Of a DNA stretch of 41,885 nucleotides, positions 12,543 through 33,888 are shown piece by piece. The position numbers were made by a program, and so were the translations under genes. Location of the stretch: positions 1 through 41,885 of the forward strand of contig NZ_UIHC01000027.1 in assembly GCF_900499075.1 (NCBI RefSeq), read 5' to 3'. The DNA is from Roseinatronobacter ekhonensis (lineage in GTDB: Bacteria; Pseudomonadota; Alphaproteobacteria; Rhodobacterales; Rhodobacteraceae). The notes beneath the pieces are model-generated. The model worked only from the letters and a program-made list of their open reading frames with translations, made no database searches and was not told the DNA's origin. Within the stretch, counting starts at the first letter, position 1, and the number at the start of each line of letters is the position of its first letter.

Positions 12543-12551
12543 GACCCCCCC

Positions 12552-13976
12552 TTACCAACTGGCCGAGATATATTGCGTTTCCATGAATTCGAGCATCCCT
12601 TCATGCCCGCCTTCGCGGCCAAGCCCGGATTGCTTGGTGCCGCCGAAGGGTGCTGCCGGGTCACTGACCAGCCCGCGATTCAGGCCCACCATACCGTAAT
12701 CCAGCCGCTCGCAGACCTGCAAACCGCGTTTGAAATCGCCCGAAAATACGTAGGCGACCAGCCCGTATTCGGTGTCGTTGGCGCGGCGGATGACATCTTC
12801 CTGATCGGTAAAGGTCTGGATCGCGGCGACGGGACCGAAGATTTCATCCTGCACGCACTCGGCATGCTCGGGCACATTCGACAGGACCGTGGGCGGGTAG
12901 AAATAGCCGGTGCCCTCGGGCACCACGCCACCGCATTCCACCTTCGCGCCCTTGGCGACGGCATCTGCCACGAACTCCGACACCTTGTCGCGGGTCGACG
13001 CGTTGACCAGCGGGCCGACATCCACGCTTGGGTCGGCCCCGTCGCCAACCTTCAGCGCCGACATGGCAGCGGTCAGGCGGGCGGTGAAATCCTCGGCAAT
13101 GTCGGCGTGAACATAAATGCGGTTCGCCGCCGTGCAGGCCTCGCCTAGGTTGCGCATCTTGGCCAGCATCGTGCCTTCTATGGCGACATTGATATCGGCA
13201 TCCTCGAACACCACCAAGGGCGCATTGCCGCCCAGTTCCATCGCGGGTTTCAGCACCTGATCGGCGGCGCCCTTCAGCAGTGTGCGCCCCACACCGGTGG
13301 AGCCGGTAAAGCTGACCACGCGCACGCGGGGGTCGTGCAACATGTGGTCAACCAGCGCGCCTGTGCGCTTGGACGGCAGCACATTGACCAAGCCCGGCGG
13401 CACGCCTGCTTCTTCTAACAGCGGCATCAGCGCCAGCATGGTCAGCGGCGTTTCCGAGGCCGGCTTGATGATGACGCCGCAGCCTGCCGCCAAAGCAGGC
13501 GCAATCTTGCGCGTGCCCATCGCGGCGGGGTAGTTCCATGGGGTTATCAGGATGGCCAAACCCGCGGGTTTGTGCTGCACCATGATCCGCGCGCCGGATG
13601 CCGGGGCATGGGTGATCATCCCGTCTGCGCGCACGGCTTCTTCGGCGAACCAGCGGAAGAATTCGGCGGCATAGGTAGCCTCGCCCTTGGCGTCGGTGCC
13701 TGCCTTGCCATTTTCCAGCGTGATCAGGTTGGCGAAATGGTCCAGCCGCGCGGTCATCAGCTCCCACGCTTTGCGCAGCACCTCTGACCGCTGGCGCGGG
13801 GTGCGCGCGGCCCATTCGGCCATTGCCGCTTCGGCGGCATCCAGGGCAGCGTCAGCATCGGCAATCTCGGCGCTTGCGACAGAGGCAAGCACCTGTTCCG
13901 TTGCGGGGTTGATGACGTCGAAGCGCGTGTCGGTCTTCACCCACGCGCCGTTGATATAAAGGTCGGTATGGTCCAT
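12552..13976 (-). CDS. NAD(P)-dependent aldehyde dehydrogenase, succinate-semialdehyde dehydrogenase-like
   Basis: This 474-residue ALDH-superfamily enzyme is complete. It has PWNYP (146-150), an NAD-binding FTGSTGVG (223-230), general base Glu247 in MELGGNAP and nucleophile Cys281 in GEACTAANR. The ASETP and LGREGGHEGM segments fit the GabD/succinate-semialdehyde group best, which oxidises an aldehyde to a carboxylate with NAD(P)+. Its position between the two E2 genes, downstream of E1-alpha and E1-beta, suggests another job in this locus: clearing the aldehyde left after acyloin cleavage. That is inference, since ALDH substrate calls from sequence are weak. The start ATG is at 13976 and the gene is separated from the lipoyl E2 gene by 27 bases. 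Confidence 0.9.
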   Translation of the reverse strand: MDHTDLYINGAWVKTDTRFDVINPATEQVLASVASAEIADADAALDAAEAAMAEWAARTPRQRSEVLRKAWELMTARLDHFANLITLENGKAGTDAKGEATYAAEFFRWFAEEAVRADGMITHAPASGARIMVQHKPAGLAILITPWNYPAAMGTRKIAPALAAGCGVIIKPASETPLTMLALMPLLEEAGVPPGLVNVLPSKRTGALVDHMLHDPRVRVVSFTGSTGVGRTLLKGAADQVLKPAMELGGNAPLVVFEDADINVAIEGTMLAKMRNLGEACTAANRIYVHADIAEDFTARLTAAMSALKVGDGADPSVDVGPLVNASTRDKVSEFVADAVAKGAKVECGGVVPEGTGYFYPPTVLSNVPEHAECVQDEIFGPVAAIQTFTDQEDVIRRANDTEYGLVAYVFSGDFKRGLQVCERLDYGMVGLNRGLVSDPAAPFGGTKQSGLGREGGHEGMLEFMETQYISASW

Positions 13977-14003
13977 CTCGGTCCCCGTATTGCAAAAGCT
14001 ATG

Positions 14004-15269
14004 TTACAGCAGGTGGCGAAGTGGCTGCGCCACCCGCCCTGCGACATCGTTCAAAAGGGCGATCGCGGCCTGTGCGCTTAGGTGATGGCCTGCGCATTCC
14101 AAGACCAGCGACAGCCCGTCGCCATCCGGCATCAGCGTCAACACCGGCACCTCTTCGGCCCCAAGCGCAACCGATTGCACAAAGCTGCCGCGCAGATCGC
14201 GCAGGATCAGCTCTGGCGCATCATCGGTGGCAGCCACTTGCGACAGGCGGCGATTGTCCGGCAGGGCATAGCTTTGGCAGGCGCCGAACCGCTCTACGCC
14301 GACAACCGCGACATGGCCCTGACCGGCCAGTGCGGCCAGAACCGCATCGGTGCTGTCCGCATGCGCCGTGGCCCAGCTTGCGAACTCTGCCAGCCCGTGG
14401 GCGGGGATGTGCGCGGTCAGGCGGCGGCCCGCCTCTGCAGCTTTGGCGGATGGGGTCGTGTCACTGGGCAATCCGCGCAACACCTCCAGATCCGCGACAT
14501 GGAAGGGCTGGGGGTGACCAGCCTTGACCAAGCGGTCCAGATCCAGCCCCTGTTCCAGAGCCAAGCGCCGCGCTTTTGGTGACGCCAAGATGCGCCCCCC
14601 CGTCTGCGGTCCGGGCGATTTCGCGGGTGTGGTGGTCTGTTTTGGCGGCTCTGGCGCTTCGGGCGCCTTGGCTTCGGTCGGAGCGGCGGGGGCCGCTGCC
14701 TCACGGGCAGACCGTGCCACGGTGTTCGTTGGCGCATCCGCACTCAGGATCGCGACCGGCGCACCGACCGCGACATCCTCGCCCGCCTGCGCCAGTGTTG
14801 CGGCCAGATAGCCGCTGGCCCCGGCAGGCACTTCCATCGTGGCTTTGTCGGTTTCGACCTCGAACAGCAGATCATCGGGGCCGACCTGCGCGCCAAGCTC
14901 GACCAGCCAGCCTACCATCTGCCCGCTATCCTGCGCCATGCCAAGCTGTGGCATGGTGATCTGGCGGCCCTCTGGCAGCGCATCGGCCGCGGGCTCTGGC
15001 GTGGGGGCAGGTGCCGGCGTCTCATCTTCGGCACTGTCGGAAATCCGCGCGATGACCTGCCCCACCGGCACGTCATCGCCCTCGGACGCCACAACCCCGG
15101 TCAGATAGCCCGCTGCCTGTGCCTCGACCTCCATCGTGGCCTTGTCGGTTTCCACCTCGAACAGCGCGTCGCCCTTTGCGACCGCGTCGCCGGGCGCTTT
15201 CAGCCAGGCCACGATCTTGCCCGCGTCTTGTGCCATGCCCAGTTGAGGCATTGTCACGTCATGCGGCAT
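14004..15269 (-). CDS. Double-lipoyl E2-type protein with decayed acyltransferase domain
   Basis: This 421-residue protein has two biotinyl/lipoyl domains (residues about 3-77 and 104-176), each with the lipoylation motif ETDKATMEV (Lys43 and Lys142). A flexible Ala/Pro-rich linker (about 178-225) and a subunit-binding domain (about 226-266: ILASPKARRLALEQGLDLDR) follow. The last 140 residues resemble a shortened E2 catalytic domain: the C-terminal HHLSAQAAIALLNDVAGRVA and QPLRHLL line up with the end of the intact E2 at 11655-12542. The DHRxxxG active site is missing, as are the SISNLGG-type motif and roughly half of the domain. It should carry acyl groups but not transfer them to CoA, much like mitochondrial E3-binding protein (protein X) in layout. 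The start overlaps the E1-beta stop by 11 bases. Confidence 0.88.
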   Translation of the reverse strand: MPHDVTMPQLGMAQDAGKIVAWLKAPGDAVAKGDALFEVETDKATMEVEAQAAGYLTGVVASEGDDVPVGQVIARISDSAEDETPAPAPTPEPAADALPEGRQITMPQLGMAQDSGQMVGWLVELGAQVGPDDLLFEVETDKATMEVPAGASGYLAATLAQAGEDVAVGAPVAILSADAPTNTVARSAREAAAPAAPTEAKAPEAPEPPKQTTTPAKSPGPQTGGRILASPKARRLALEQGLDLDRLVKAGHPQPFHVADLEVLRGLPSDTTPSAKAAEAGRRLTAHIPAHGLAEFASWATAHADSTDAVLAALAGQGHVAVVGVERFGACQSYALPDNRRLSQVAATDDAPELILRDLRGSFVQSVALGAEEVPVLTLMPDGDGLSLVLECAGHHLSAQAAIALLNDVAGRVAQPLRHLL

Positions 15270-16254
15270 GAATCATCTCCCCGGCACATAGCTTGCGGGC
15301 GTTCGCGGCCACGCCTTCGGGCGTGGGCACGGTGATATCTTCCAGCGCGGGGCTGAACGGCACCGGCACATCCATCGCGCCCATGCGCAGTACCGGTGCA
15401 TCCAGATGGTAAAACGCCTTTTCGTTCAGACGGCTCGCGATTTCAGCGGTCACGCCGTAGCTCTGGTGGCCTTCGTCAATCACGATCGCGCGGCTGGTTT
15501 TCTTTACGCTGGCCAGCAACGTCGCCTCGTCGAGCGGCACAATGGTGCGCGGGTCGATCACCTCGGCGCTGATGCCCTCGGCGTCCAGTAGCGCGGCGGC
15601 CTTCTCGGCCACCTGCACCATCGACGACGTGGCGATGAAAGTGATGTCGGACCCTTCACGCTTGATATGCGCCTCGCCGAACGGGATGAGGTATTCCTCT
15701 TCCGGGACCGGCGCCTTGTCCTGATACATCAGCTTGTCTTCGAAAATTACCACCGGGTTATTGTCGCGGATGGCGGTTTTCATCAGGCCTTTGGCTTCGT
15801 AGGCCGACGACGGCATCGCGACCTTCACGCCGGGAATGTGCGCGACCAAAGCCTGCAGGGACTGGCTGTGTTGCGCGGCAGAGCGACGGGTAGCCCCTAT
15901 GTTGGTGCGCAGCACCATCGGCACGGTCAGTTTGCCGCCCGACATGTAGTGCTGCTTGGCAGCTTGGTTGCACAGCTGGTCCATGACCAGGTAGATGAAA
16001 TCGCCGAACATCAGGTCCACGATGGGGCGTGCGCCGGTCATCGCGGCGCCGACCGCCAGACCGACGAAGCCCGGTTCCGAAATGGGTGTGTCCAGCACGC
16101 GGTCGGTGCCGAATTCCTCGACCAGACCGGACAGAACCTTGAACGGCGTGCCGGCCTCGGCCACGTCTTCGCCCATCAGGAAAACGGTTGGATCGCGGCG
16201 CATTTCCTCGGCAATTGCCTCGTTTACGGCCTGCGACAGGGTAATCTCGCGCAT
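15259..16254 (-). CDS. Thiamine-diphosphate 2-oxo acid/acetoin dehydrogenase E1, beta subunit
   Basis: This 331-residue protein starts at MREITLSQAVNEAI (16254), chosen because GGAAGGAG lies seven bases upstream; a GTG 21 bases further out lacks support. It is the transketolase-like beta half of an alpha2beta2 E1. Features are FLMGEDVAEAGTPFKV near the N-terminus, DTPISEPGFVGLAVG, and GATRRSAAQHSQSL, the loop with the catalytic/phosphorylation-region residues of E1-beta. The segment PSSAYEAKGLMKTAIRDNNP closely resembles acetoin dehydrogenase beta (AcoB), and the absence of an N-terminal lipoyl domain separates it from alphaproteobacterial pyruvate dehydrogenase E1-beta. With E1-alpha it would cleave a 2-oxo acid or acyloin and hand the acyl group to lipoyl-E2. 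The exact substrate is not decided by sequence. Confidence 0.9.
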   Translation of the reverse strand: MREITLSQAVNEAIAEEMRRDPTVFLMGEDVAEAGTPFKVLSGLVEEFGTDRVLDTPISEPGFVGLAVGAAMTGARPIVDLMFGDFIYLVMDQLCNQAAKQHYMSGGKLTVPMVLRTNIGATRRSAAQHSQSLQALVAHIPGVKVAMPSSAYEAKGLMKTAIRDNNPVVIFEDKLMYQDKAPVPEEEYLIPFGEAHIKREGSDITFIATSSMVQVAEKAAALLDAEGISAEVIDPRTIVPLDEATLLASVKKTSRAIVIDEGHQSYGVTAEIASRLNEKAFYHLDAPVLRMGAMDVPVPFSPALEDITVPTPEGVAANARKLCAGEMIHAA

Positions 16255-16289
16255 TATCTGCTCCTTCCGTAGCACCGGGAGATGCCCGC

Positions 16290-16353
16290 CCCGGGCCTGA
16301 CCCGGGGCCTCCGGGCCGGACTTGCGTTGAGATCCCGGGTCAGGCCCGGGATC
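16290..16353. repeat. Palindromic REP-like repeat pair between E1-beta and E1-alpha
   Basis: CCCGGGCCTGACCCGGG (16290-16306) is followed 28 bases later by CCCGGGTCAGGCCCGGG (16334-16350), its exact reverse complement. Each unit is itself nearly palindromic, and together they form a long inverted repeat. A close relative lies at 17384-17434 on the other side of the E1-alpha gene. This is the arrangement of paired REP/BIME-type elements. In transcript it would form a strong stem that could block 3' exonucleases or weaken read-through into E1-beta. Confidence 0.75.
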
Positions 16354-16380
16354 GGTTTGCGTTTGGGGTCCCTCATCGCG

Positions 16381-17370
16381 TCAGGCCAAAGCATGTTCGA
16401 TGTCGGAAAACACATGCATGTCCACTTCGGACACATCGGGGTAGGCGGCGGCTTCGGCATAGGCGACGGCGTCGGTCGCGTCCTTCTCGACCGCAGTGTT
16501 GATCGCCTCTATCTCGTCTTCAGTGGCGATGCCCTGTTCGACCAGATAGCCGCGGAAGCGCACGATCGGGTCGCGATTCTCTTTCCAGTCCTTTTCCTCG
16601 TCCTTGGACCGGTAGTATTCGCGATTGATGTCGCCGACATGGTGGCCGTGGTAGCGGTAGGTCATCAGTTCCAGAAAGAATGGGCCTTCACCCTTGCGGG
16701 CACGGGCGACCAGCTTGTTGGTAAGCGCGTTCACCGCCAGCACGTCCTGCCCGTCCACTTGGTGGCTCTCGATCCCGAAAGCCTCTGCCCGCGCGGTGAT
16801 CGAACCTGCCGCGATTTCCTCGGTCTTGGTGTATTCAGAGTAGCCGTTGTTTTCGCAGGCATAGATCACCGGCAGATTCCAGAGCGCGGCCATGTTCATG
16901 ACCTCGTACCACAGCCCTTGCGCGGTTGCGCCGTCGCCAAAGAAACACACGGTCACATCGTCCGAGCCTTGCAGCTTGGCCCGCAGCGCCGAGCCGGTGG
17001 CGATCCCCATGGACCCTCCGACAATTGCGTTCGCGCCAAGGTTCCCGTGGCTCTGGTCGGCGATATGCATCGACCCGCCCTTGCCCCGGCAATAGCCCTC
17101 GGCCTTGCCCAGAAGCTCGCAGAACATCTCCTTGAATTCCGCGCCCTTGGCCACGCAATGCCCGTGACCCCGGTGCGTGCTGGTGATGCGGTCATCGTCG
17201 GTCAGCGCTTCACAAATGCCCACCGCGACAGCTTCCTCGCCGGAATACATATGCGTCAGGCCCGGCATCTTGGCGGACAGGTATAGCTGGTTGGCGTTAT
17301 CCTCGAAGGTGCGGATGCGCACCATCTGGGTATACATCCGCAGGTAGTCTTCGGTGTTTGTCTTGGTCAT
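16381..17370 (-). CDS. Thiamine-diphosphate 2-oxo acid/acetoin dehydrogenase E1, alpha subunit
   Basis: This 329-residue protein of normal length for the family has the thiamine-diphosphate motif GDG (145-147) ending in ENN (173-175). It also has the conserved STHRGHGHCVAKG and GKGGSMHIAD segments and a YRYHGHHVGD segment around the phosphorylation-loop region. Overall it looks like AcoA/PdhA. It pairs with E1-beta encoded downstream to decarboxylate a 2-oxo acid or cleave an acyloin. Palindromic repeats flank it on both sides. No convincing Shine-Dalgarno precedes the ATG because the upstream bases belong to one of these repeats. No E3 (lipoamide dehydrogenase) gene occurs in the window, so E3 must be shared. 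Confidence 0.9.
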   Translation of the reverse strand: MTKTNTEDYLRMYTQMVRIRTFEDNANQLYLSAKMPGLTHMYSGEEAVAVGICEALTDDDRITSTHRGHGHCVAKGAEFKEMFCELLGKAEGYCRGKGGSMHIADQSHGNLGANAIVGGSMGIATGSALRAKLQGSDDVTVCFFGDGATAQGLWYEVMNMAALWNLPVIYACENNGYSEYTKTEEIAAGSITARAEAFGIESHQVDGQDVLAVNALTNKLVARARKGEGPFFLELMTYRYHGHHVGDINREYYRSKDEEKDWKENRDPIVRFRGYLVEQGIATEDEIEAINTAVEKDATDAVAYAEAAAYPDVSEVDMHVFSDIEHALA

Positions 17371-17443: not shown

Positions 17444-18742
17444 TCAATACCGGTTTGCGATCGGCAACTCTTCGGCTGGGAACAGGCTGATGACTTCGCA
17501 CCCGGTCTCGGTGACGACGACCTCTTCCTCGATCCGGGCGGCGGAATAGCCGTCGGTGGCCGGGCAATAGGTCTCGAGCGCAAAGACCATGCCGGTCTGG
17601 ATTTCCATCGGATGATCCAGAGACACAGCGCGGCTGATGATGGGCCGCTCGTGCAGCGCCAGACCCAAACCATGCCCGAATTGCAGGCCAAAGGCCGCGT
17701 CCTCGTTCGGAAATCCTAGCGATTCGGCTGTCGGCCAGACCTCTGCAACCTTGTCGGTGGTGACACCTGGCTTGATCATCGCGATCGACGCGTCGATCCA
17801 TTCGCGCGCCTTGACATAGGCGTCGTTCTGCGAGGGCGTTGCACGGCCCACGTTGAAGGTCCGGTAGTAACAGGTCCGGTAGCCTTGATAAGATTGCAGA
17901 ATGTCAAAGAAAGCCTGATCGCCGGGGCGTATCAGCCTGTCGGTGAAGTTATGCGGGTGCGGGTTGCACCGCTCGCCCGAAATGGCGTTGATCGCTTCGA
18001 CATCGTCCGACCCCATTTCATACAGCAGCTTGTTCGACATCGCGACGATGTCATTCTCGCGCACGCCGGGTTTCAGTTCCTCATAGATCATGTGGTAGAC
18101 GCCATCGACCATCGCTGCGGCCTGCGTCAGAAGCTGGATTTCGTCCCAGTTCTTGATCTCGCGCGCGGCGAGCATGATCTGCTGACCATCGACCACGTTG
18201 ATGCCTTCTTCGCGCAGCGCGTGGAACATCGCGGTTTCGGCGTAATCCACGCCCACCGGCATATCGGCCATGCCCGCATCCTTGATCAGCTGCGCGATCA
18301 TCTTGGCATATTTCTGCATCAGCCCGAATTCGGGCGGGATGGTGCCCCGCATGCCAACGACACCGGCCAGGCAATGGCTGGGCTCCAGCCAGTCTGAATA
18401 GCGCTGGTGGTGCACGGCGGCAGAGCCGAAATCCCAGACATAGGGGCTGTCATCGCCGGTCAGCAGGCAGAAGCGGCACATCTTGTCGCGTTCCCACTCG
18501 CCGATCTTGGTGGCGGTGACATAGCGGATATTGTTCACATCGAACAACAAAAGCGACCCCGCCTGCGAGTTTTGCAAGCTTTGGCGCGTGCGCGCCAGCC
18601 GGTAGCGGCGCAGGCGGTCATGGTCAACGCGGCGTTCGAAATCGACAGAGGTGTGGCCCCAGGCGGGTAGGCGGTCGCGCCATTCCCAGTTGGGTTCCAG
18701 ATCCTGCGGGGTCAGAAGGTTCGGCATAAGGGCGCGGTTCAT
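17444..18742 (-). CDS. M24 (pita-bread fold) peptidase-like protein with an incomplete metal site
   Basis: This 432-residue protein has a creatinase/prolidase N-terminal domain (about 1-195, including LLLFDVNNIRYVTATKIGEW) and a C-terminal M24 domain. M24 enzymes hydrolyse Xaa-Pro peptides or small amides using two metals held by Asp, Asp, His, Glu and Glu. Here Asp280 (FFDILQS), His357 (GHGLG), Glu390 (FALE) and Glu405 (ARIEEE) are present. The second Asp, expected 10-12 residues after the first, is replaced: the segment reads GYRTCYYRTF, with Thr290 and Cys291. It may bind one metal, or use a different chemistry, as metal-free creatinase does. A GGAG lies eight bases before the start. The gene sits between an SDR and E1-alpha, so a small-molecule substrate is more likely than a peptide (inference). 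Confidence 0.8.
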   Translation of the reverse strand: MNRALMPNLLTPQDLEPNWEWRDRLPAWGHTSVDFERRVDHDRLRRYRLARTRQSLQNSQAGSLLLFDVNNIRYVTATKIGEWERDKMCRFCLLTGDDSPYVWDFGSAAVHHQRYSDWLEPSHCLAGVVGMRGTIPPEFGLMQKYAKMIAQLIKDAGMADMPVGVDYAETAMFHALREEGINVVDGQQIMLAAREIKNWDEIQLLTQAAAMVDGVYHMIYEELKPGVRENDIVAMSNKLLYEMGSDDVEAINAISGERCNPHPHNFTDRLIRPGDQAFFDILQSYQGYRTCYYRTFNVGRATPSQNDAYVKAREWIDASIAMIKPGVTTDKVAEVWPTAESLGFPNEDAAFGLQFGHGLGLALHERPIISRAVSLDHPMEIQTGMVFALETYCPATDGYSAARIEEEVVVTETGCEVISLFPAEELPIANRY

Positions 18743-18839: not shown

Positions 18840-19649
18840 TTATTGGATGCACCAGCCGCCATCGATATGGATCATCTGGCCGGTCATGTAGTCGCTGTCA
18901 TCGCTGGCAAGGAATGACGCGGTGCCGGTGATGTCATCGGGGTAGCTGACGCGTTTGATCTGAAGCGCATCGCGCACGATGTCGTCATAGGCCTGCCCTT
19001 CGCGCTCCTTGAAGCCGATATCGACCAGATCCTTGTCCAACTGCTCCCACAGCGGCGTGACCACAACGCCCGGCGCATAGCCGTTCACGGTGATGTTGTG
19101 TTCCGCCAGACCGATTGCGCCGCAATGGGTCAGCGCAAGGCAGCCGTATTTCGACGTGCAATAGACCGTGACATCCACCAGCGGCTTGCGGCTGGCGATA
19201 GAGCCGACATTGATCAGCTTGTAAGGATGCCCTTCCATCGGGCCTTGGGCGATCATCTGGCGCGCGGTTTCCTGCATGCCCAGCCACATGGCCTTTGTAT
19301 TGACGTTCATGATCATGTCCCAGTTGTCTTCATCGATATCCATGAAGAACCGGGGCTTGTTCAGGCCCGCATTGAAGACCCCGACATTGATCGACCCGAA
19401 CGCCTCGACCGTGGCAGAAACGGCGCTGGCATTGTCCTCGCGCTTTGTCACATCCATCTTGACCGCGATGGCCTTGCCGTTTCCGGCAGCGTTGATCTTG
19501 TCGGCCATCTCTTGTGCGGCGGGCAAGTCCAGATCGCCCAGGCAGACATTCGCTCCTTGTGCGGCAAAGGCTTCGGCATTGGCGGCACCCATGCCGCGCG
19601 CGGCACCGGTTATCAGGATGTTTTTGCCTTTCAGGCGATTGGGGTCCAT
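18840..19649 (-). CDS. SDR-family NAD(P)-dependent oxidoreductase (polyol/acyloin dehydrogenase-like)
   Basis: This 269-residue classical short-chain dehydrogenase has TGAARGMG at 14-21 for the cofactor and the active-site set Asn117, Ser150, Tyr163 and Lys167 (YCTSK). The acidic residue after the second strand (GDLDL) favours NAD+. The C-terminal part (VVVTPLWEQLDKDLVDIGF, DDSDYMTGQ) resembles the 2,3-butanediol/acetoin and sorbitol dehydrogenase group. It is clearly paralogous with the SDR at 22729-23526; both share NAG-x-NKP, DNW, SIASR, LWEQ/MWEQ and DSDYMTGQ. GGGAGG precedes the ATG by five bases. The gene is 10 bases downstream of the fused regulator and probably in one transcript with it. 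The likely role is oxidation of a secondary alcohol on the imported compound (inference). Confidence 0.88.
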   Translation of the reverse strand: MDPNRLKGKNILITGAARGMGAANAEAFAAQGANVCLGDLDLPAAQEMADKINAAGNGKAIAVKMDVTKREDNASAVSATVEAFGSINVGVFNAGLNKPRFFMDIDEDNWDMIMNVNTKAMWLGMQETARQMIAQGPMEGHPYKLINVGSIASRKPLVDVTVYCTSKYGCLALTHCGAIGLAEHNITVNGYAPGVVVTPLWEQLDKDLVDIGFKEREGQAYDDIVRDALQIKRVSYPDDITGTASFLASDDSDYMTGQMIHIDGGWCIQ

Positions 19650-19659
19650 GGTTTCCTCC

Positions 19660-21483
19660 CTAAGTGACCTTGGATTTCAGGATTGTTTCGGCCTCGGACT
19701 GGATGCGGTCCAAAGCAGTACGCGGGAGCGTGATCCCGCGCAGCATGTCATGCAACTCGCGCCCGCATAGGTCGATGATCTGCGACACTTGCGGGATGGG
19801 CGGGCGCGGCCAGAATTGCAGTTCGTCGCGCCATGACATCTGGTCGAGCAGCCCGAAAATCGGTGACAGGCGCCGCACCTCTGGGTCGGCGCCCACGGAA
19901 TAGCGCGGCTCTGTCCGGCTGCCGTTTTGGGCATAGAGCTTTTGCGCTCCGGGCGAGGTGAAGGTGATCAGCGCCTCGACCGTATCGTCAATCCGGTCCT
20001 CTGCCAGATTGGCGGGGACACACAGCACATAGCCGCCGACGGGCGCAATCGGACTGCCCTCTGGCCCGTGCGGGTGCGGCAGGTAGCCGGTATTGCCATG
20101 CGCGGGGCTGTTTTCGTCCAGCTCGAAATACGGGGCCAGCAGGGTATAGCCATAGGCCATCGCAACATGCCCCGCACCATAAGGGCGGACCCGCTCATAC
20201 CACGACATGGACAGAATATCGGGCGGCGAATAATCCAGAAGCTGCATCAGATACTCCGCCGCTTCCAGCGCGCGGTCGGTGTTCAGCGTGGGGGTGAATC
20301 CGCCCTGTGCCAAGCGGTCGGTGTCATAGCCCCCTGCAATCGCTGGCATGTCGATGATCGGTTGGCCAAAAGCGGCACAGGTCATCATGAACGTGTGCCC
20401 CAGCGCTGTGCCGCGCGCGGCATTCCACGCCACGCCGTAGCGTCCGCGCTGCGGGTTGTGCAGATGGCGCGCGGCGGCAAGTACCGCATCCGTGGTGGTC
20501 GGCAGGTCCAGCCCTTCGTTGGCGAACCAGTCCTTGCGGTAGAACATCAATTCAGGCGTGGTCTGGCTGGGCACACCGTATGGGCGCCCGCCCCAATGCG
20601 CGGCCCGCCACCCGGCGGTGTGAAAATCGGCCGGGTCCAGCAGGGCCACATTCATCACTTCGTCCAGTGGCCGGATGATGCCCTTTTCCACGAACTCGCC
20701 CACCCAGGGCAGGTCCACCGCGATCAGGTCGTAGCGGCTTTTGGGGCGTTCAGCATTGCGCAGGGCTTCCTCGCGCAGCCGGTCGATGGAAAAGGCGCGC
20801 TGGTGAATGCTGGTGCCGACGATCTGTTCGAACTGGCGTTTCAGCCCTTCCATCACCATGAAGGTCGGGTCGCCATGCACCAGAATGCGCAATCCGCCCG
20901 ACAGCTTCAGCGGCTCTGGCAGGGCGCGGGGTGGCGCGATGGCGGCGCGCCCCGGCTGGTATGACCCGCCGAAATAGTAATCGGTCGTTTCCTGCGCGGG
21001 GCCGGCCAGCCCGAAAGAGCGGCGCGCCAAGCGGTCAATGCGGTCGGCCAACTGGCTGAACCCGTCAAGCAGGCTGGCGCTGGGATGCAGCGAATGGCTT
21101 TTGCCGGTGCGGGTGCGCACGCGACGGTCCACCAGCCCAGCCGCTTCCACCTCTGCCAGCTTGCGTGTCGCCGTTGCATAGGGAACGCCCGCCGCCGCAA
21201 CAAGGGACGAGGGTGAAACGATCCGACCTTCGGAATGGCTTTGCAGCAGGTGCAGGATCATCTTCAGATGCGGGTTCGGCGTGGTGGGTTCCAAAGAGCT
21301 GTCGAGTTCCACCAACAGGTCGGTCAGAAAGTCTGTGACGCGGTCGAGATCGGGATCATTGGACGCGATCACAGCCTCCATCGGCGCGATTGCCGCGGAT
21401 TGTCCGATTTGAGCATTTCTTACCGTGCTGTGTTTCATCGACTCTGATTCTGGTGGCTGGCTGTGCTGCGACTTGCGGCGCAT
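19660..21483 (-). CDS. Transcription regulator: winged-helix domain fused to MalE-type solute-binding domain
   Basis: This 607-residue protein has no signal peptide or membrane helix, so it should be cytoplasmic. Residues about 70-160 form a MarR-like winged helix: LKMILHLLQSHSEGR, then the recognition region SLVAAAGVPYATATRKLAEV, then AGLVDRRV. After a linker, residues about 195-590 match extracellular solute-binding family 1 proteins. Visible features include LRILVHGDPTFMVMEGLKRQ, RYDLIAVDLPWVGEFVEKG, GRPYGVPSQTTPELMFYRKD and the late GGYVLCVPANL. The fold is the MalE/sorbitol-binding kind, unlike the LacI family, whose sensor is RbsB-like. It most likely senses a sugar or polyol inside the cell and controls the divergent transporter operon and its own operon. 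GAGGAG lies seven bases before the ATG. Direct activity is inference; the domain call is strong. Confidence 0.85.
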   Translation of the reverse strand: MRRKSQHSQPPESESMKHSTVRNAQIGQSAAIAPMEAVIASNDPDLDRVTDFLTDLLVELDSSLEPTTPNPHLKMILHLLQSHSEGRIVSPSSLVAAAGVPYATATRKLAEVEAAGLVDRRVRTRTGKSHSLHPSASLLDGFSQLADRIDRLARRSFGLAGPAQETTDYYFGGSYQPGRAAIAPPRALPEPLKLSGGLRILVHGDPTFMVMEGLKRQFEQIVGTSIHQRAFSIDRLREEALRNAERPKSRYDLIAVDLPWVGEFVEKGIIRPLDEVMNVALLDPADFHTAGWRAAHWGGRPYGVPSQTTPELMFYRKDWFANEGLDLPTTTDAVLAAARHLHNPQRGRYGVAWNAARGTALGHTFMMTCAAFGQPIIDMPAIAGGYDTDRLAQGGFTPTLNTDRALEAAEYLMQLLDYSPPDILSMSWYERVRPYGAGHVAMAYGYTLLAPYFELDENSPAHGNTGYLPHPHGPEGSPIAPVGGYVLCVPANLAEDRIDDTVEALITFTSPGAQKLYAQNGSRTEPRYSVGADPEVRRLSPIFGLLDQMSWRDELQFWPRPPIPQVSQIIDLCGRELHDMLRGITLPRTALDRIQSEAETILKSKVT

Positions 21484-21694
21484 GCGATCACTCCTCTTTC
21501 AATTTGCTCATATTGAACGTGGAAAATATCACCGAAATATCCAAAATGAGAGCAATCAAGTTCAATATTGATAAATTGCCGGAGGCGTGATCGGACAGAA
21601 TCGCAATGATTGGGGTGTGATCGGTTGGGGCATGTCCCTTCGAGTGAGGAGGATGCTCGCGATCGCGCTGACAATTCCATGGGAGGAACGGAAA
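21484..21694. promoter_or_regulatory. Divergent promoter/operator region of the regulator and transporter operons
   Basis: These 211 bases separate the two starts and are clearly richer in A+T than the surrounding genes. They contain TTCAAT-8 bases-ATTGAA (21498-21517), the perfect palindrome TCAATATTGA (21562-21571) and loosely flanking GCAAT/ATTGC (21552-21579). The repeated TTCAAT half-site makes these candidate operators for the winged-helix regulator. I see no confident -35/-10 pair. GGGAGGA at about 21681 is the ribosome site of the binding-protein gene. Confidence 0.5.
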
Positions 21695-22648
21695 ATGAAA
21701 ACAGCACTGAAAGTTGCACTCGCGTGCTCGACCGCACTGATCGGCACCGCTGCTGCAGCACAAGACATGACCATCGGCATTACCCAGAACAACGTGGGCG
21801 TCGACAGCTATCAAACGACCTATGAGCAAGCGTTCATCGCTGCCGCAGAAGCCAACCCCGATGTTGAAGTGGTTGTGCTGGACGCAGGTGGTGACGTGGC
21901 CCGCCAACTTGCCCAGATTGACGACCTGATCCAGCAAGAGGTCGATGCGATGATTATCTGGCCGACCAATGGCGAGGCTGTGATCCCCGCAGTGCGCCGC
22001 GCGTCGCAAGCGGATATTCCGGTGGTCATCACCAATTCCAACATCGCCGAAGCCGGGTTTGATTTCATCTCTGCCTTCTCGGGCCCCGACAACGTCACCC
22101 AAGGGTCGCGCTCCGCAGAAATCATGTGCGACCGGTTCAAGGAACTGGGCATCGAGGACGAGGCGAAAGTTGTGCACATCACCGGTCAGCCGGGCTACAC
22201 GACCGCCATCGAGCGCGCGCAAGGCTTCAACGATCGCCTGCCCGAAGTCTGCCCGAATGTCGAGCAGATCGACGAACAGCCCGGCGACTGGAACCGCGAG
22301 AAGTCGCAGCAGGTCATGGAGGCTTTCCTTGTCCAGTATGACGATATCGACGGTGTTTACTCCGGCGATGACAACATGGGTGTCGGCGCCATGAACGCCG
22401 CGATTGCTGCGGACCGTGTTGACGGCATCACCTTCGTCGGCGCCACCAACTTCGCAGTTGGTTATGACGCGATGGCAGAAGGCACCTACTGGGGGTCGAT
22501 CTACCAGTCGCCAGTGGATGACGCCGAAGCCGCGCTGCAAACCGCCATCGACGTCCTGAACGGCGAAGACGTGCCCTTCCTGAACTACTTCGACACGCCG
22601 AAGATCACTCAGGACAACATGGACGAGTTCACCAAGCCGGTGTTCTGA
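21695..22648 (+). CDS. Sugar ABC transporter periplasmic binding protein (RbsB/Peripla_BP_4 type)
   Basis: This 317-residue preprotein has a clear signal peptide (MKTALKVALACSTALIGTAA) cleaved near AAAQ-DMTIGIT. The mature part shows the type I periplasmic-binding fold of ribose/xylose-type transporters: QIDDLIQQEVDAMIIWPTNG, then AVRRASQADIPVVITNSN, then VYSGDDNMGVGAMNAAI. It delivers the substrate to the two permeases and ATPase encoded downstream. The start is supported by GGGAGGA about eight bases upstream. The ligand is not readable from sequence; the neighbouring SDRs suggest a polyol or sugar. A strong hairpin follows the stop, as often found where the binding protein is made in excess over the membrane parts. 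Confidence 0.9.
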   Translation: MKTALKVALACSTALIGTAAAAQDMTIGITQNNVGVDSYQTTYEQAFIAAAEANPDVEVVVLDAGGDVARQLAQIDDLIQQEVDAMIIWPTNGEAVIPAVRRASQADIPVVITNSNIAEAGFDFISAFSGPDNVTQGSRSAEIMCDRFKELGIEDEAKVVHITGQPGYTTAIERAQGFNDRLPEVCPNVEQIDEQPGDWNREKSQQVMEAFLVQYDDIDGVYSGDDNMGVGAMNAAIAADRVDGITFVGATNFAVGYDAMAEGTYWGSIYQSPVDDAEAALQTAIDVLNGEDVPFLNYFDTPKITQDNMDEFTKPVF

Positions 22649-22728: not shown

Positions 22729-23526
22729 ATGGCGCGCGTTTCAGGGCGGTCATGTATCGTGACAGGGGCTGCGCAGGGCATAGGCCGTGCGATCGGCGAG
22801 GCACTTCTGGCCGAGGGGGCCCATGTCTGTTTTGCCGATATCAACGCCGCCAAGGTGGCAGAGGTCGCTGACGCGAACGGCGAACGCGCCGCCAATGCCG
22901 GGGCCAAAGTGACCCATGCACCGGTCGATGTGACCGACCGCGAACAGGTGCGTGCCATGATCGCACACACGGTTGCAAAATTCGGTCGCCTGGATGTGAA
23001 GTTCAACAATGCCGGCGTGAACAAGCCTATGAATTTTCTGGATGTGACCGAAGATAACTGGAATTTCATAATGGGTATCAATGGCTTGGGCTGCATGATC
23101 GGAATGCAGGAAGCCGCCCAGCAAATGATCGCGCAGGGCGACGGCGGGAAGATCGTGAATACCGCCAGTATTGCCAGCCGTCAGGGCTTTGGTAACGTGG
23201 CCCCTTACTGCGCCAGCAAGTGGGCCGTCGTGTCGCTGACCCAGTCCGGCGCGCGCGATCTGGCGCAGCACAACATAACCGTCACCGGCTTTGCGCCGGG
23301 TGTGGTCGCAACAGAGATGTGGGAACAGGTCGACCAAGACCTTGTGGCCATTGGCGCGGCAGAGCGCCCCGGTCAGGCGATGGAAGAGTTTTCCGCCGAT
23401 ATTCTGAAGGGCCGCGTCGCGCTGCCCGAGGATATCACCGGAACGACGACATTTCTGGCGTCACGCGACAGCGATTACATGACCGGCCAGATCATCATGA
23501 TTGACGGGGGCATGACGCTGGTTTGA
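22729..23526 (+). CDS. SDR-family oxidoreductase (sorbitol/2,3-butanediol dehydrogenase-like)
   Basis: This 265-residue classical SDR has a TGAAQGIG cofactor motif at 12-19, Ser147, Tyr160 and Lys164 (YCASK), and an NNAG at 93-96. The aspartate in FADINA suggests NAD+. The segment TEMWEQVDQDLVAIGAAERP and the end SDYMTGQIIMIDGGM recall meso-butanediol and sorbitol dehydrogenases, which oxidise a secondary alcohol to a ketone. It is embedded in the transporter operon between the binding-protein and permease genes and is a paralogue of the SDR on the other side of the regulator. The two may act in sequence on one compound or on two stereoisomers (inference). Confidence 0.88.
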   Translation: MARVSGRSCIVTGAAQGIGRAIGEALLAEGAHVCFADINAAKVAEVADANGERAANAGAKVTHAPVDVTDREQVRAMIAHTVAKFGRLDVKFNNAGVNKPMNFLDVTEDNWNFIMGINGLGCMIGMQEAAQQMIAQGDGGKIVNTASIASRQGFGNVAPYCASKWAVVSLTQSGARDLAQHNITVTGFAPGVVATEMWEQVDQDLVAIGAAERPGQAMEEFSADILKGRVALPEDITGTTTFLASRDSDYMTGQIIMIDGGMTLV

Positions 23527-23554: not shown

Positions 23555-24526
23555 ATGACACTCAACAAGCAGGATATCGGCAGGCTGCTGGCCAAGCAGG
23601 GCATTCTGATTGCCTTTATCGTCTTCATGATCGGGTTTGCGCTGGCCAACCAACGCTTCATTGCCATCGACAATATTGCGGGCGTGATCCGGTCCTCTGC
23701 CATTCTGGGCGTTATGGCGCTGGGCGTGACCTTCGTGGTGATCGGCGGCAATCTGGACCTGTCCGTCGGGTCGATGATGTCGTTTTCCACCATCGTGGTG
23801 CTGGACCTGCATGACAAGATCGGACCCGCGCTGGCCATTCCGGCCATGTTCGCGCTGACACTGTGTCTGGGTGCCTTCATCGGGTTCCTTGTCGGCTATC
23901 TGAAGCTCAATTCCTTGATTGTAACGCTTGGGATGCTCTCGGCCATTCATGGACTGACGCTGACATGGTCGGGCGGCAAGAATATGGACATCGCAGACAA
24001 GGCCGGAACCTGGTTCTCTGTTTTCGGGCAGGACCGCATTATGGGAATTCCCGTTCCGATCCTGATATTCGCATTACTTGCCGCGGTGTTAACCTTGTTA
24101 CTGTCGAAGACCCCATTTGGCCGAAAGGTTTATGCGGTCGGTGGCAACGGACAAGCCGCCACGTTTTCCGGCATCCCGCGCGCACGCGTGGTGTTCTACA
24201 CCTACCTGATTTCTGCTTTCTGCGTCGCGGTGGCCGGTTTGCTGCAGGCCAGCCGTAGCCTTGGCAGTCAGAACACCGTGGGCCAGGGGCTGGAGCTGGA
24301 GGTGCTGGCCGCCGTCATCCTTGGTGGCGCATCGCTGTTAGGCGGGTCCGGCACCGTGTTCAAGACCGTGATCGGCGTGCTGATCCTTGGGTTTATCCAG
24401 AATGGACTGCTGCTCGTCGGGCTGGATTTCTATGTTCAGTATATCGTGACATGGGCCATCATCATTCTTGCCGTCTGGCTGGATGTGGCCGCCAAGAGGG
24501 GCCGTCTGTGGTCCCCGATCGCATAA
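23555..24526 (+). CDS. Sugar ABC transporter permease 1 (RbsC/BPD_transp_2 type)
   Basis: This 323-residue polytopic membrane protein has eight to ten hydrophobic segments. Family marks are IGGNLDLSVGSMMSFS in the first half, KTPFGRKVYAVGGNGQAA before the coupling region, and LEVLAAVILGGASLLGGSGT near the C-terminus. These are the signature positions of the branched-chain/ribose type permease family. AGGGGAGG lies about eight bases before the ATG. It is followed by a second, different permease gene, so the channel is probably a heterodimer. Confidence 0.9.
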   Translation: MTLNKQDIGRLLAKQGILIAFIVFMIGFALANQRFIAIDNIAGVIRSSAILGVMALGVTFVVIGGNLDLSVGSMMSFSTIVVLDLHDKIGPALAIPAMFALTLCLGAFIGFLVGYLKLNSLIVTLGMLSAIHGLTLTWSGGKNMDIADKAGTWFSVFGQDRIMGIPVPILIFALLAAVLTLLLSKTPFGRKVYAVGGNGQAATFSGIPRARVVFYTYLISAFCVAVAGLLQASRSLGSQNTVGQGLELEVLAAVILGGASLLGGSGTVFKTVIGVLILGFIQNGLLLVGLDFYVQYIVTWAIIILAVWLDVAAKRGRLWSPIA

Positions 24527-24539
24527 GGGAGCGGCAGAT

Positions 24540-25541
24540 ATGACATCCGCAAACCGCAAAGACATGCTGAAACGTGGCGCGATCTGGGGGTTTATCCTGC
24601 TGGAACTGGCGTTCTTCTCGATCATTGGCGACCAGTTGTCGGTCTCTGACCAGCCGTTTCTGGCCTATGACAACATGCTGTTGGTGCTGAAGCAATCGGC
24701 CCCCATCGGGATTATCGCGCTCGGTATGACGATAGTCATGATCAACGGCAATATCGACCTGAGTGTGGGGGCGACATTTGCGCTGGCCGCCATCGTAATG
24801 CTGGACAGCATGACATGGCCGTTCATGCAGGCCATGGGCGACTGGGCAATCCCGCTGGCATGGCTGTTTGCATTGGCGACAGGCGTTATCATGGGGGCAA
24901 TCAACGGCATCATCGTCTGGAAAACCGGGGTCGATGCCTTCATTGTCACGCTGGGGGCGATGCTGGGATTCCGCGGTATCGTCTTTATGTTCAACGGCGA
25001 GCAGCCCACCAGCCACCTGAACTGGACGCTCGTGGATTTCGCCGAGGCGCAGTTTCTGGGTCTGCACACGGCCACATGGTTCCTGCTGGGCGCGGCGCTT
25101 GTTCTGTGGCTGCTGATGACTAAAACCGTTCATGGCCGCAACGCCTATGCCATCGGCAACAACCGCGAAGCGGCCGTGAATGCAGGTATTCGTGTCGGGC
25201 CGCATTTCATCTGGAACTTCATGCTGATCGGTTTTCTGGCCGCGCTGTCAGCGGTGGTGTTCTATTCCGAGAGCGGCTCGGTCAACCCGAATGACGGGAT
25301 GCTGTATGAGCTTTGGGCGATTACCGCCGTTGTCTTGGGCGGCACCAAGCTGGCGGGGGGATATGGGTCCATCATCTCCACGTTGGGCGGCGTCATCGCG
25401 ATCCAGTTGCTGCGCAAGGGGTTGGGCCATATCGGGGCGGATACGCAAACGGTGAACCTTGTGATTGGCTTGATCCTGATCGCTGTGCTGGTGCTGGACC
25501 GCCAGTTGAACCGCAAGGGCCAAGGGGAGTTGAAGATATGA
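24540..25541 (+). CDS. Sugar ABC transporter permease 2 (RbsC/BPD_transp_2 type)
   Basis: This 333-residue protein starts at MTSANRKDML, 13 bases after the previous stop, with GGGAG upstream. It has the same family marks as its neighbour: INGNIDLSVGATFALAA, KTVHGRNAYAIGNNREAA, and LWAITAVVLGGTKLAGGYGS. Its stop overlaps the ATPase start (ATGA), which suggests coupled translation. With permease 1 it forms the membrane pore of the importer. The substrate follows the binding protein at 21695. Confidence 0.9.
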   Translation: MTSANRKDMLKRGAIWGFILLELAFFSIIGDQLSVSDQPFLAYDNMLLVLKQSAPIGIIALGMTIVMINGNIDLSVGATFALAAIVMLDSMTWPFMQAMGDWAIPLAWLFALATGVIMGAINGIIVWKTGVDAFIVTLGAMLGFRGIVFMFNGEQPTSHLNWTLVDFAEAQFLGLHTATWFLLGAALVLWLLMTKTVHGRNAYAIGNNREAAVNAGIRVGPHFIWNFMLIGFLAALSAVVFYSESGSVNPNDGMLYELWAITAVVLGGTKLAGGYGSIISTLGGVIAIQLLRKGLGHIGADTQTVNLVIGLILIAVLVLDRQLNRKGQGELKI

Positions 25542-27046
25542 CCGACCAGACACCGGTTTTGCGCCTTGAGGGCATTGTCAAAACGTTTCCCGGCGTGCGG
25601 GCCTTGGACGGCGTCTCTTTCGACGTGCGCCCCGGAGAGGTTCATGCCCTGATGGGCGAGAACGGCGCGGGCAAATCCACACTGATGAAGGTTCTGGGCG
25701 GTATTCACGCTCCGAACGAAGGGCAGATCTTCGTCGGCGACGAAGCTGTCACGATGACCTCGCCAAAGCATGCCAAGGCCAAAGGGGTGGTGTTCATCCA
25801 TCAGGAACTTAGCCTTGCCGACGAGTTGACTGTGGCCGAGAATATCTTTCTTGGCGAATTGCCCCTGAAAGGGTTCGGGCGCGTCGATTGGGGCAAGTTG
25901 TATGACGACACCAACGCAATTCTGAAAACGTTGAATGTCGGGTTTGATGCGAAAACCCGCGTGGGTGATCTGTCCATCGCGAACCAGCAGATGGTCGAGA
26001 TCGGGCGCGCGCTGACCGTGTCGCCCCGCGCCGTTATCTTTGACGAACCCACGGCATCGCTGACAGACTCCGAAAAGGTTGTGTTGTTTCAAGTGATCGC
26101 GGGCCTGCAAGAAAAGGGTGTGGGGATCATCTACATCTCTCACCGGATGGAAGAGATTTTCAAGATCACCGACCGCATCAGCGTTCTGCGCGACGGGCAA
26201 TATCGTGGTACGCTTTTAACCGCCGAAACTAACGAGGATGACGTCACCAAGCTGATGATCGGGCGCAGCCTTGATCTGTCGCGCTCAGAGGCCACGCACG
26301 AACTGGGCGATGTGGCGTTGGAAGTTCGCGGGCTTGCTTGCGGGTCGCTGTTCGAGGATGTCAGCTTCAAACTGCACAAAGGCGAGGTTCTGGGCTTTTA
26401 TGGCCTTGTCGGCGCAGGTCGGACAGAGATTGCGGAAACCATTTTCGGGTTGCGCACCCCGTCGGCTGGCACGATCCTGTTGAACGGGGAAGAAGTGCGG
26501 ATAACCTCGCCCATTGACGCTGTGCAGCGCGGTATTTCCCTGGTGCCCGAGGATCGCAAGGACCAAGGGTTGGTGTTGGGCATGAATTGCCGCGACAACA
26601 TGACCTTGCCACAGGTGGACGACCTGACAGCGGGTCCATTTGTCAGCGACGGGGCCGAAATCGCGATTTTCGATCAGTATCGCGACAAGTTGGACATTCG
26701 CACACCCGGTTGGCGGCAAACCGTGGGCAACCTGTCGGGTGGCAACCAGCAGAAAATTGTCATTGGCAAATGGCTGTCCATGCGCCCCAATGTGCTGATC
26801 GTGGATGAACCCACACGCGGCATTGATGTCGGGTCAAAATCCGAGATCCACAACCTGATCCGCGATCTGGCATCCCAAGGCTACGCGGTGATCGTGATCA
26901 GCTCTGAAATGCCAGAGGTTCTGCGCGTGTCCGACCGGATCGTGGCCATGTTCAACGGGCGCATCATGCGCGACTTCACGGCCGAGGAAGTGACCGAGGA
27001 CAACCTGATTCAGGCTATCTCCGGCATCTCGGAAAAGGTCGCATAA
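25538..27046 (+). CDS. Sugar ABC transporter ATP-binding protein with two ABC domains (RbsA/MglA type)
   Basis: This 502-residue protein holds two fused ATPase domains. The first has Walker A MGENGAGKSTLM (39-50), a weak signature (LSIANQQMVEI) and Walker B AVIFDEPTASL. The second has the degenerate Walker A typical of this family (GLVGAGRTEIAET), a good signature (NLSGGNQQKIVIGKWL) and VLIVDEPTRGIDVG. It powers the two permeases. The chosen ATG overlaps the upstream stop. The gene ends six bases from the stop of the opposing ATPase gene, with no terminator visible between them. Confidence 0.92.
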   Translation: MTDQTPVLRLEGIVKTFPGVRALDGVSFDVRPGEVHALMGENGAGKSTLMKVLGGIHAPNEGQIFVGDEAVTMTSPKHAKAKGVVFIHQELSLADELTVAENIFLGELPLKGFGRVDWGKLYDDTNAILKTLNVGFDAKTRVGDLSIANQQMVEIGRALTVSPRAVIFDEPTASLTDSEKVVLFQVIAGLQEKGVGIIYISHRMEEIFKITDRISVLRDGQYRGTLLTAETNEDDVTKLMIGRSLDLSRSEATHELGDVALEVRGLACGSLFEDVSFKLHKGEVLGFYGLVGAGRTEIAETIFGLRTPSAGTILLNGEEVRITSPIDAVQRGISLVPEDRKDQGLVLGMNCRDNMTLPQVDDLTAGPFVSDGAEIAIFDQYRDKLDIRTPGWRQTVGNLSGGNQQKIVIGKWLSMRPNVLIVDEPTRGIDVGSKSEIHNLIRDLASQGYAVIVISSEMPEVLRVSDRIVAMFNGRIMRDFTAEEVTEDNLIQAISGISEKVA

Positions 27047-28108: not shown

Positions 28109-28111
28109 GGT

Positions 28112-28918: not shown

Positions 28919-28944
28919 CTGACGCCCCCCTTTGCAACTACTGC

Positions 28945-28974
28945 TTGACAAAGGCTACCCAGCCCTGCCATCTT
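28945..28974 (+). promoter_or_regulatory. Candidate promoter of the galactoside operon
   Basis: A perfect TTGACA (-35) lies at 28945-28950; with an 18-base spacer the -10 would be CATCTT at 28969-28974, a weak match. The start of transcription would fall near 28981, upstream of the binding-protein ATG at 29028. The -35 is the stronger part of this call. Confidence 0.4.
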
Positions 28975-28993
28975 TTTCAATATATAAAAACAA

Positions 28994-29010
28994 GTTTCAC
29001 ATATTGGAAC
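28994..29010 (+). promoter_or_regulatory. Candidate IclR operator
   Basis: GTTTCA, five bases, TGGAAC is an imperfect dyad (five of six positions pair). It lies just downstream of the candidate promoter and 17 bases before the binding-protein start. A repressor bound here could block RNA polymerase. The dyad is of a size used by IclR dimers. Confidence 0.4.
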
Positions 29011-29027
29011 CTGCAAGGGAGGAAAAC

Positions 29028-30275: not shown

Positions 30276-30284
30276 AACCATCTG

Positions 30285-30309
30285 CAAGGGCGGCTTTGCG
30301 CCGCCCTTG
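30285..30309 (+). other. Intercistronic hairpin after the binding-protein gene
   Basis: CAAGGGCGGC, loop TTTGC, GCCGCCCTTG form a perfect 10-bp stem ten bases after the stop. No T run follows (TCCCC), so it is more likely an mRNA-stabilising stem that raises binding-protein yield relative to the permeases than a terminator. Confidence 0.6.
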
Positions 30310-30338
30310 TCCCCGCTACAGCTTCGAAGGCGTTCGCA

Positions 30339-31250: not shown

Positions 31251-31253
31251 GGC

Positions 31254-32462: not shown

Positions 32463-32475
32463 GGAGAGCCGTCAA

Positions 32476-33828: not shown

Positions 33829-33830
33829 TC

Positions 33831-33851: not shown

Positions 33852-33888
33852 AAAATCCAATACCGGCCCCAAAGGACCACCGCTCGAT

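Follow-up and report, generated by a model that had tools for sequence, protein, structure and literature searches.

The window analysed here is a stretch of 41,885 nucleotides from the alphaproteobacterium Roseinatronobacter ekhonensis (contig NZ_UIHC01000027.1), and the gene of interest, which we call REG, encodes a protein in which a MarR-like winged helix is joined in frame to a MalE-class ligand-binding domain. REG is divergent from the gene for an RbsB-type binding protein, and the region between the two genes contains predicted operator sites. The features on which the analysis centres are listed below, with positions counted in the window.

19660..21483, minus strand: REG (regulator gene), an ATG-to-stop open frame of 607 amino acids
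21013..21354, minus strand: winged-helix domain of REG (residues 44-157), containing the recognition segment GVPYATATRKLAEVEAAGL and the wing RTRTGKSHSLHP, assigned from a model of the head, MarR-like matches and invariant residues
19660..20907, minus strand: MalE-class (type II, SBP_bac_1) ligand-binding domain of REG (residues approximately 193-607), assigned from Pfam, Foldseek and hmmsearch
21484..21694, no strand: divergent intergenic region with predicted operators, between REG and the RbsB-type gene
21504..21520, no strand: operator site 3 (predicted), TTGCTCATATTGAACGT, with a score of 12.0 and a spacing of 33 bp to site 1
21537..21553, no strand: operator site 1 (predicted), ATATCCAAAATGAGAGC, with a score of 9.3
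21558..21574, no strand: operator site 2 (predicted), AAGTTCAATATTGATAA, with a score of 12.5 and a spacing of 21 bp to site 1

On the combined sequence evidence we consider it very likely that REG is a cytoplasmic, ligand-responsive one-component regulator of the divergent transport and oxidation operons, acting as a MarR-like dimer on tandem palindromes and sensing through its MalE-type domain.

The REG frame is preceded by a Shine-Dalgarno-like AGAGGAG ahead of the ATG at 21483, and the protein is laid out as a variable tail (residues 1-43), the MarR-like winged helix (approximately 44-157), a low-confidence linker (approximately 159-179) and the SBP_bac_1 domain (approximately 193-600). 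The identity of the sensor is clear from several directions. Pfam assigns residues 251-512 to SBP_bac_1 at 79.3 bits (cut-off 26), and SBP_bac_8 is also matched, at 48.4 bits (cut-off 27), both within residues 248-536. The nearest solved structure by sequence is 5iai, a sugar ATP-binding cassette (ABC) transporter binding protein (hmmsearch E value 1.9e-54), and Foldseek places the C-terminal part of the REG model on the same structure with a target TM-score of 0.91. The AlphaFold2 model, built for a 564-residue construct with 34 homologues, has a mean predicted local distance difference test (pLDDT) of 88.2, with a weak linker at construct residues 116-136.

Family 1 binding proteins typically have a secretion signal and CUT1 permease partners. 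REG has no leader-like stretch in residues 1-61, where the highest 15-residue Kyte-Doolittle mean is 1.25, and the operon divergent from it is of the RbsB/RbsC/RbsA type. The same hydrophobicity measure reveals no leader-like stretch in residues 44-193 of 77 fused open reading frames (ORFs) (maximum 1.41), the region ahead of residue 44 having been scored in the window protein alone, whereas four secreted relatives reach 1.91, 1.97, 2.15 and 1.55. The winged helix and the binding domain are fused in 77 of the 78 ORFs read, including that of the window, and the exception (locus L008) is a secreted binding protein.

These results bear directly on whether REG could simply be a secreted solute-binding protein whose frame was read too far upstream. 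The database annotation leans that way: 25 of the 30 plasmid records listed name the homologue as an extracellular or periplasmic binding protein (24 as ‘extracellular solute-binding protein’ and 1 as ‘ABC-type sugar transport system, periplasmic component’), the other 5 having no annotated gene. Against it stand the missing leader, the homology that covers the head in 77 of 78 ORFs and the RbsB/RbsC class of the importer genes adjoining REG. We rejected this reading on alignment and hydrophobicity and give it a negligible probability; a frame artefact is likewise ruled out, as homology runs across both domains. Homologues with a leader and without the head, which the initial annotation had named as a sign of such an artefact, do exist (L196, L008, L188 and L189), yet they are secreted proteins in their own right that fall outside the fused clade, and so give no evidence of a frame error. 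The in-frame fusion of a MarR-like winged helix and a family 1 binding domain lacking a signal peptide, with which that annotation began, is borne out by Pfam, the structural models, hydrophobicity and the fused ORFs.

The head is best named MarR-like, judging from its predicted structure. A separate AlphaFold2 model of this part has a pLDDT of 92.4 and consists of two helices, a helix-turn-helix (HTH), a two-strand wing and a further helix, and MarR proteins, including HpaR, Rv0880, MepR, SlyA and MarR, make up most of the top 50 Foldseek matches in the PDB. The structure prediction proposed at the outset returned a MarR-like head, with modest fold scores, together with the 5iai-like C-terminal domain. 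In the head alignment (A2) H40, T61 and R64 are invariant and Y59, G73, R78, G84, S88, H90 and P91 are nearly so, the recognition and wing segments ranking among the best-conserved stretches of the head.

To examine what this head might read we used 100 close loci, made up of 80 contig loci and 20 picked by hand from genome hits, which reduce to 87 distinct loci after removal of contained duplicate intergenic sequences. The divergent intergenic regions carry a tandem 17-bp palindrome, ATATCCAWWWTGGATAT, repeated at 21 bp. All 87 intergenic regions contain at least two sites above score 8, whereas Markov-shuffled copies yield on average 0.4 such regions, and the spacing is exactly 21 bp in 85 site pairs. 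In two-fold cross-validation a matrix from either half of the regions was applied to the other half, and it recovered the pair in all 44 regions of one half and in 42 of the 43 regions of the other. The best-scoring sites are 64% identical between sequences, compared with 36% for the flanks, a contrast helped by the choice of the best site. Orthologues also conserve a third site, on the REG side of the pair and approximately 34 bp away from it. In the window itself the sites at 21537 and 21558 form the sole pair above score 8 with a spacing of 20-22 bp in the whole 41.9 kb.

The palindrome extends to more distant relatives. Among 22 paralogous genes with 30-51% identity, a site scoring more than 10 falls in the 350 bp ahead of REG in 16 cases; between 2% and 12% of windows from the same paralogue loci attain such a score. 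At L083-L086 a pair with 20 bp spacing lies just upstream of a gene for a short-chain dehydrogenase/reductase (SDR), and at L100 and L101, which are small-genome copies, ATATTCAWWTTGAATAT occurs ahead of REG and again ahead of the SDR gene. In a subgroup formed by L097 and L098 the wing is altered (RGNGLKTHFLEPS in L098 compared with RTKTGKSFSLHPS), and neither a matching site ahead of the gene nor a clear transporter match was found. On sequence grounds, the palindromes are the strongest sign that the REG head reads DNA.

The gene order around REG is equally well conserved in the close loci. In the window the neighbouring genes are as follows.

21695..22648, plus strand: RbsB-type binding protein (Peripla_BP_4, type I), which opens the divergent operon and has a leader-like N-terminus
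22729..23526, plus strand: SDR dehydrogenase, whose best NCBIfam matches, acetoin reductase and L-iditol 2-dehydrogenase, are both under cut-off
23555..24526, plus strand: RbsC-type permease
24468..25541, plus strand: second RbsC-type permease, start uncertain
25541..27046, plus strand: RbsA-type ATPase, start uncertain
18840..19649, minus strand: SDR dehydrogenase adjoining REG in the same orientation, closest PDB sequences sorbitol and L-iditol dehydrogenases
17444..18742, minus strand: M24-family metalloenzyme, distantly DddP-like, far under the cut-off of that model
11655..17370, minus strand: 2-oxoacid or acyloin dehydrogenase-type genes, comprising the next five entries
16381-17370, minus strand: E1 alpha
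15259-16275, minus strand: E1 beta
14004-15269, minus strand: lipoyl protein
12552-13976, minus strand: aldehyde dehydrogenase
11655-12542, minus strand: E2 catalytic protein

All 100 close loci have REG and RbsB in divergent orientation. Of the 87 distinct loci, 86 have RbsC and RbsA after RbsB. An SDR gene lies on the same strand as REG in all 87 and the M24 gene does so in 81, while E1 alpha occurs in 72; contig ends account for part of the shortfall. The whole regulator, importer and oxidation cluster is carried by the 60.9-kb Phaeobacter inhibens plasmid pP92_e (L192), where one side encodes an SDR, an Xaa-Pro peptidase family protein, E1 alpha, E1 beta, a lipoyl protein, succinate-semialdehyde dehydrogenase, E2 and lpdA, and the other an RbsB-type protein, an SDR, two permeases, an ATPase, an oxidoreductase and ThuA. 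The cluster is likewise plasmid-borne in Rhodobacteraceae bacterium SC52 (L195). The prediction that REG controls the divergent operons therefore gains indirect support from the synteny and from the confinement of the palindrome to the divergent region.

Several observations weigh against this reading. Residues 76-121 of REG match Pfam MarR_2 with 18.8 bits, under the cut-off of 27, so that the winged-helix call rests on structure and conservation. The fold scores of the head are modest, with a single match at E<0.001 (best 9.1e-4), query TM-scores of approximately 0.4-0.6 and root-mean-square deviations often of 6-8 Å, and its sequence profile gives weak matches only, to MarR, IclR, TubR and others (best E value 0.023). 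The seed of the site matrix was picked by eye among enriched 8-mers, and the matrix was trained on the regions that it was used to score. The count of pairs at 20-22 bp favours the reading, with 89 inside the 24.4 kb of intergenic sequence and none across 1,139 kb of flanks, but the flanks that serve as its control are mostly coding DNA of the same loci. The window's own sites (9.3-12.5) are weaker than those in most relatives, and single-site matches in the window are at chance level (79 found, 78 expected), so that the spacing alone is informative there. Six of the 22 paralogues (L082, L083, L084, L086, L097 and L098) have no upstream site above score 10. The synteny counts, finally, were made on the closest relatives, whose loci are related by descent.

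The sub-threshold Pfam match could be taken to mean that another regulator owns the palindromes and that REG acts as a binding protein in the cytoplasm, its DNA-binding head being vestigial. The recognition and wing segments with their three invariant residues are difficult to reconcile with a vestigial head, however, and a foreign palindrome would not be expected to recur in the same form beside paralogues at other loci. We regard this alternative as very improbable and retain the view of REG as a probable DNA-binding regulator.

We infer that REG itself binds DNA and does so as a dimer, palindromic sites being what a MarR-like head would fit. In the mechanism that we propose, one REG dimer would sit on each 17-bp palindrome through its winged helix, and because 21 bp corresponds to two helical turns, two dimers would lie on one face of the DNA, with a weaker third copy of the site near the REG start. 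The MalE-type domain would act as the sensor by closing on a small cytoplasmic molecule, perhaps a polyol or a product made from a polyol by the adjacent SDR dehydrogenases. Closure could shift the spacing of the DNA-reading heads and change their occupancy, switching both the importer operon and the operon of regulator and oxidation genes. Occupied sites near the REG start would result in autorepression; the position of the third site suggests this, and we take it as the likeliest default that REG probably represses itself.

The arrangement of the sites fits a repressor or an activator of the importer operon alike. REG could be an activator in the manner of SgrR: with ligand bound, it would occupy the tandem sites approximately 120 bp ahead of the RbsB start codon and bring RNA polymerase to the promoter of that gene, while still acting as a repressor of its own gene. 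In 74 of 87 loci the distance from the end of the pair to the RbsB start codon, which was chosen by a simple pattern for ribosome sites, is 113-136 bp, a constancy that leaves room for a promoter between, and SgrR is described as an activator of sgrS (PMC4021124). On the other side, a promoter scan gave one consensus match, which is doubtful and overlaps the RbsB start. Heads of the MarR type are repressors more often than not. We hold activation to be rather unlikely.

The nature of the ligand can be approached through the proteins encoded nearby. The best PDB match of the RbsB protein is 2ioy, ribose-binding proteins also being matched, followed by 5hko and 4rs3, with 4rsm lower. The structures 5hko, 4rs3, 4rsm and 5iai were reportedly solved with polyols. 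Because of these structure matches and the SDR matches to acetoin reductase and to sorbitol and L-iditol dehydrogenases, we infer a polyol-like ligand for REG, with the case for and against about evenly balanced. A further possibility is that the sensor reads a downstream catabolic intermediate rather than the imported solute, which would explain why its fold class is unlike that of RbsB. The SDR gene does stay with REG relatives as the transporter changes: at L083-L086 the RbsA/RbsC-like genes are 29-36% identical to those of the window and the SDR 60-68%, with the M24 gene kept in L084 and L086. The ligand is not dictated by fold class, however, and polyol binders occur in both classes of solute-binding protein (SBP). 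We regard the intermediate as a plausible signal, though less likely than not.

The association with transporters is broad but not universal. At 20 paralogue loci, also picked by hand from genome hits and scanned with the gene families of the window only (relatives 30-51% identical), RbsB, RbsC and RbsA relatives occur together at L082, L088, L089, L091-L095 and L099, RbsA/RbsC-like genes at L083-L086, L100 and L101, and MalF/MalG/UgpC-like genes at L087. ATPase-like matches alone were found at L090, L096 and L097, in the last case distant (8 kb off), and L098 has no match to the transporter families of the window. A Rhizobium plasmid homologue has aromatic-degradation and oxidoreductase genes as neighbours and no sugar importer among those annotated, the PLSDB gene table being incomplete, while an Agrobacterium homologue is flanked by two sugar ABC gene sets. 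The expectation that homologues always lie beside ABC sugar transporters accordingly holds for most of them and fails for L098, for L097 with its distant ATPase and for the Rhizobium homologue.

Some other features of these loci may be recorded here. One RbsBCA-type gene set is flanked by a convergent pair of distinct paralogous regulators, L088 and L089, with 36% and 44% identity to REG. The M24 protein stays with the SDR and the regulator even in L077 and L079, where no E1/E2 relatives were found. In 11655-15269 the E2 component is seemingly split, a 421-amino-acid lipoyl protein with two lipoyl stretches being apart from the catalytic acyltransferase gene, with the aldehyde dehydrogenase between them. 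A neighbouring, separate cluster at 27053-35598 encodes an IclR-type regulator, a MalFG/UgpC-type importer with its own SBP_bac_1 protein, a GH4 hydrolase and an IlvD/EDD-type dehydratase.

Relatives of REG were found in 53 of 295 genomes of the family (E<=1e-30; a tally that takes in the SBP-only genomes G410 and G312 and the fragments-only G446), in 54 of 292 genomes of the order (E<=1e-30), in 7 of 289 genomes of the class (E<=1e-20; including the SBP-only G065) and in 8 of 398 genomes of the phylum (E<=1e-40; including the SBP-only G883 and G868). A relative is encoded on 469 contig stretches, and the best 80 of these 469, which were the ones analysed, are mainly from Rhodobacteraceae, with Stappia, Martelella, Oricola and others. 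One full-length copy (L187) comes from another class of the same phylum and has a divergent RbsB-like ORF. Among PLSDB plasmids 45 records match, of which 34 cover at least 80% of the query, mainly from Rhizobium (16) and Phaeobacter (12). Profile matches in alignment A1 (E<=0.05) are to SBP_bac_1 in 34 of 34 rows, MarR_2 in 19 and HTH_IclR in 11. L028 was omitted from the 35 rows selected for A1, and L043 as well from A2. Hits with one in-frame stop, at L007 and L028 and in G361, G480, G603, G784 and G883, were left unrepaired.

The origin of the family can be traced to some extent through L196, the closest transport relative found. This gene (4743-6092 of its locus, minus strand), which came up among the hits in genomes of the family, encodes a secreted SBP_bac_1-type protein that has a hydrophobic leader and no DNA-binding head, and it is followed by MalF-, MalG- and two UgpC-like genes. 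It is approximately 40% identical to the sensor of the REG family (35-43% to 32 of 34 fused members, 29% and 31% to the remaining two), compared with 21-29% only to five other secreted proteins. A first tree had few and distant secreted rows; a second, to which L196, L198 and L199 were added and from which L002 and the window's own SBP were dropped, again groups all 34 fused rows on one side, joining L196 to the fused clade with support of 100/99 and placing it outside with 93/83, several long branches leaving the root side uncertain. A search with L196 in 385 genomes of the class gave 9 matches in 8 genomes, with frames of 564-641 amino acids, a length that fits the fused forms; two of the genomes, G1179 and G1187, were new to that search.

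The simplest reading of this phylogeny is that a MarR-like head captured a CUT1 transport protein once, loss of the head in L196 being less likely. The sensor thus seems to stem from a MalE-class transporter lineage, while the importer that it faces is of the RbsB class. That the sensor was not simply copied from the transporter's own binding protein, as first proposed, agrees with the domain assignments (Peripla_BP_4 for the RbsB product, SBP_bac_1 for the sensor) and with the position of its closest secreted relative in a MalFG-type operon of another genome. More broadly, we think it likely that REG represents an unrecognised and widely spread family of one-component regulators, which would have arisen by a single capture, spread largely in Alphaproteobacteria and come to control varied ABC importer and oxidation operons whose importer binding protein is often of the other fold, with a diversified pocket and variations on the operator code TYCA-N3-TGRA. 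If so, proteins annotated as exported sugar-binding components are transcription switches of the operons beside them, and sugar or polyol regulators of marine and soil Alphaproteobacteria are currently overlooked. The family would also be a case of transport-protein capture for which a secreted sister protein (L196) is at hand.

Comparison with known regulators helps to place this architecture. LacI/GalR proteins likewise reuse a sugar-binding protein as a cytoplasmic sensor, but theirs is of the type I (RbsB-like) fold and is combined with a LacI HTH. REG matched neither this HTH nor the type I periplasmic binding protein (PBP) domain, and membership was rejected. LysR-type regulators combine a winged helix with a PBP-like effector domain of the related type II fold. 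The sensor of REG differs in being a full-size MalE-class domain, and LysR membership was rejected since HTH_1 and LysR_substrate were unmatched in Pfam at E<=1. MarR proteins provide the best fold matches of the REG head and have palindromic sites, the head differing in its sub-threshold MarR_2 match, and they are not known to have a separate sensor domain of the REG kind. Secreted CUT1 binding proteins such as 5iai and L196 share the fold and sequence of the REG sensor, L196 differing in its leader, its MalF/MalG-like neighbours and its lack of a DNA-binding head. Pfam may also hold architectures of GntR and SBP_bac_1 in Firmicutes.

A survey of titles and abstract openings, largely outside subscription journals, found no HTH and SBP_bac_1 regulator. 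The initial statement that the MalE-like fusion is not a nameable regulator class stands in that form, but a class with HTH and solute-binding domains does exist. SgrR and DsvR (Vca0578) of Gammaproteobacteria are HTH and SBP_bac_5 regulators tied to sugar metabolism (PMC13060122, PMC4021124). They resemble REG, which has no leader-like stretch, in combining an N-terminal HTH with a C-terminal solute-binding domain in one regulator, and differ in having SBP_bac_5 and another HTH where REG has SBP_bac_1. The REG family, unlike SgrR/DsvR, mostly adjoins ABC importer genes. Neither SgrR_N nor SBP_bac_5 gave a Pfam match on REG at E<=1, and membership was rejected. SgrR/DsvR is the closest kind to REG, which would work in a like manner but, judged by these domain matches, belongs to none of the SgrR/DsvR, LacI and LysR groups. 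The same design has been reached by engineering, in chimeras that fuse a soluble periplasmic binding protein to a DNA-binding domain and were tested for benzoate (PMC6079105). If our reading of REG is correct, its family is the natural and diversified counterpart of these biosensors, and one that comes with a predicted operator.

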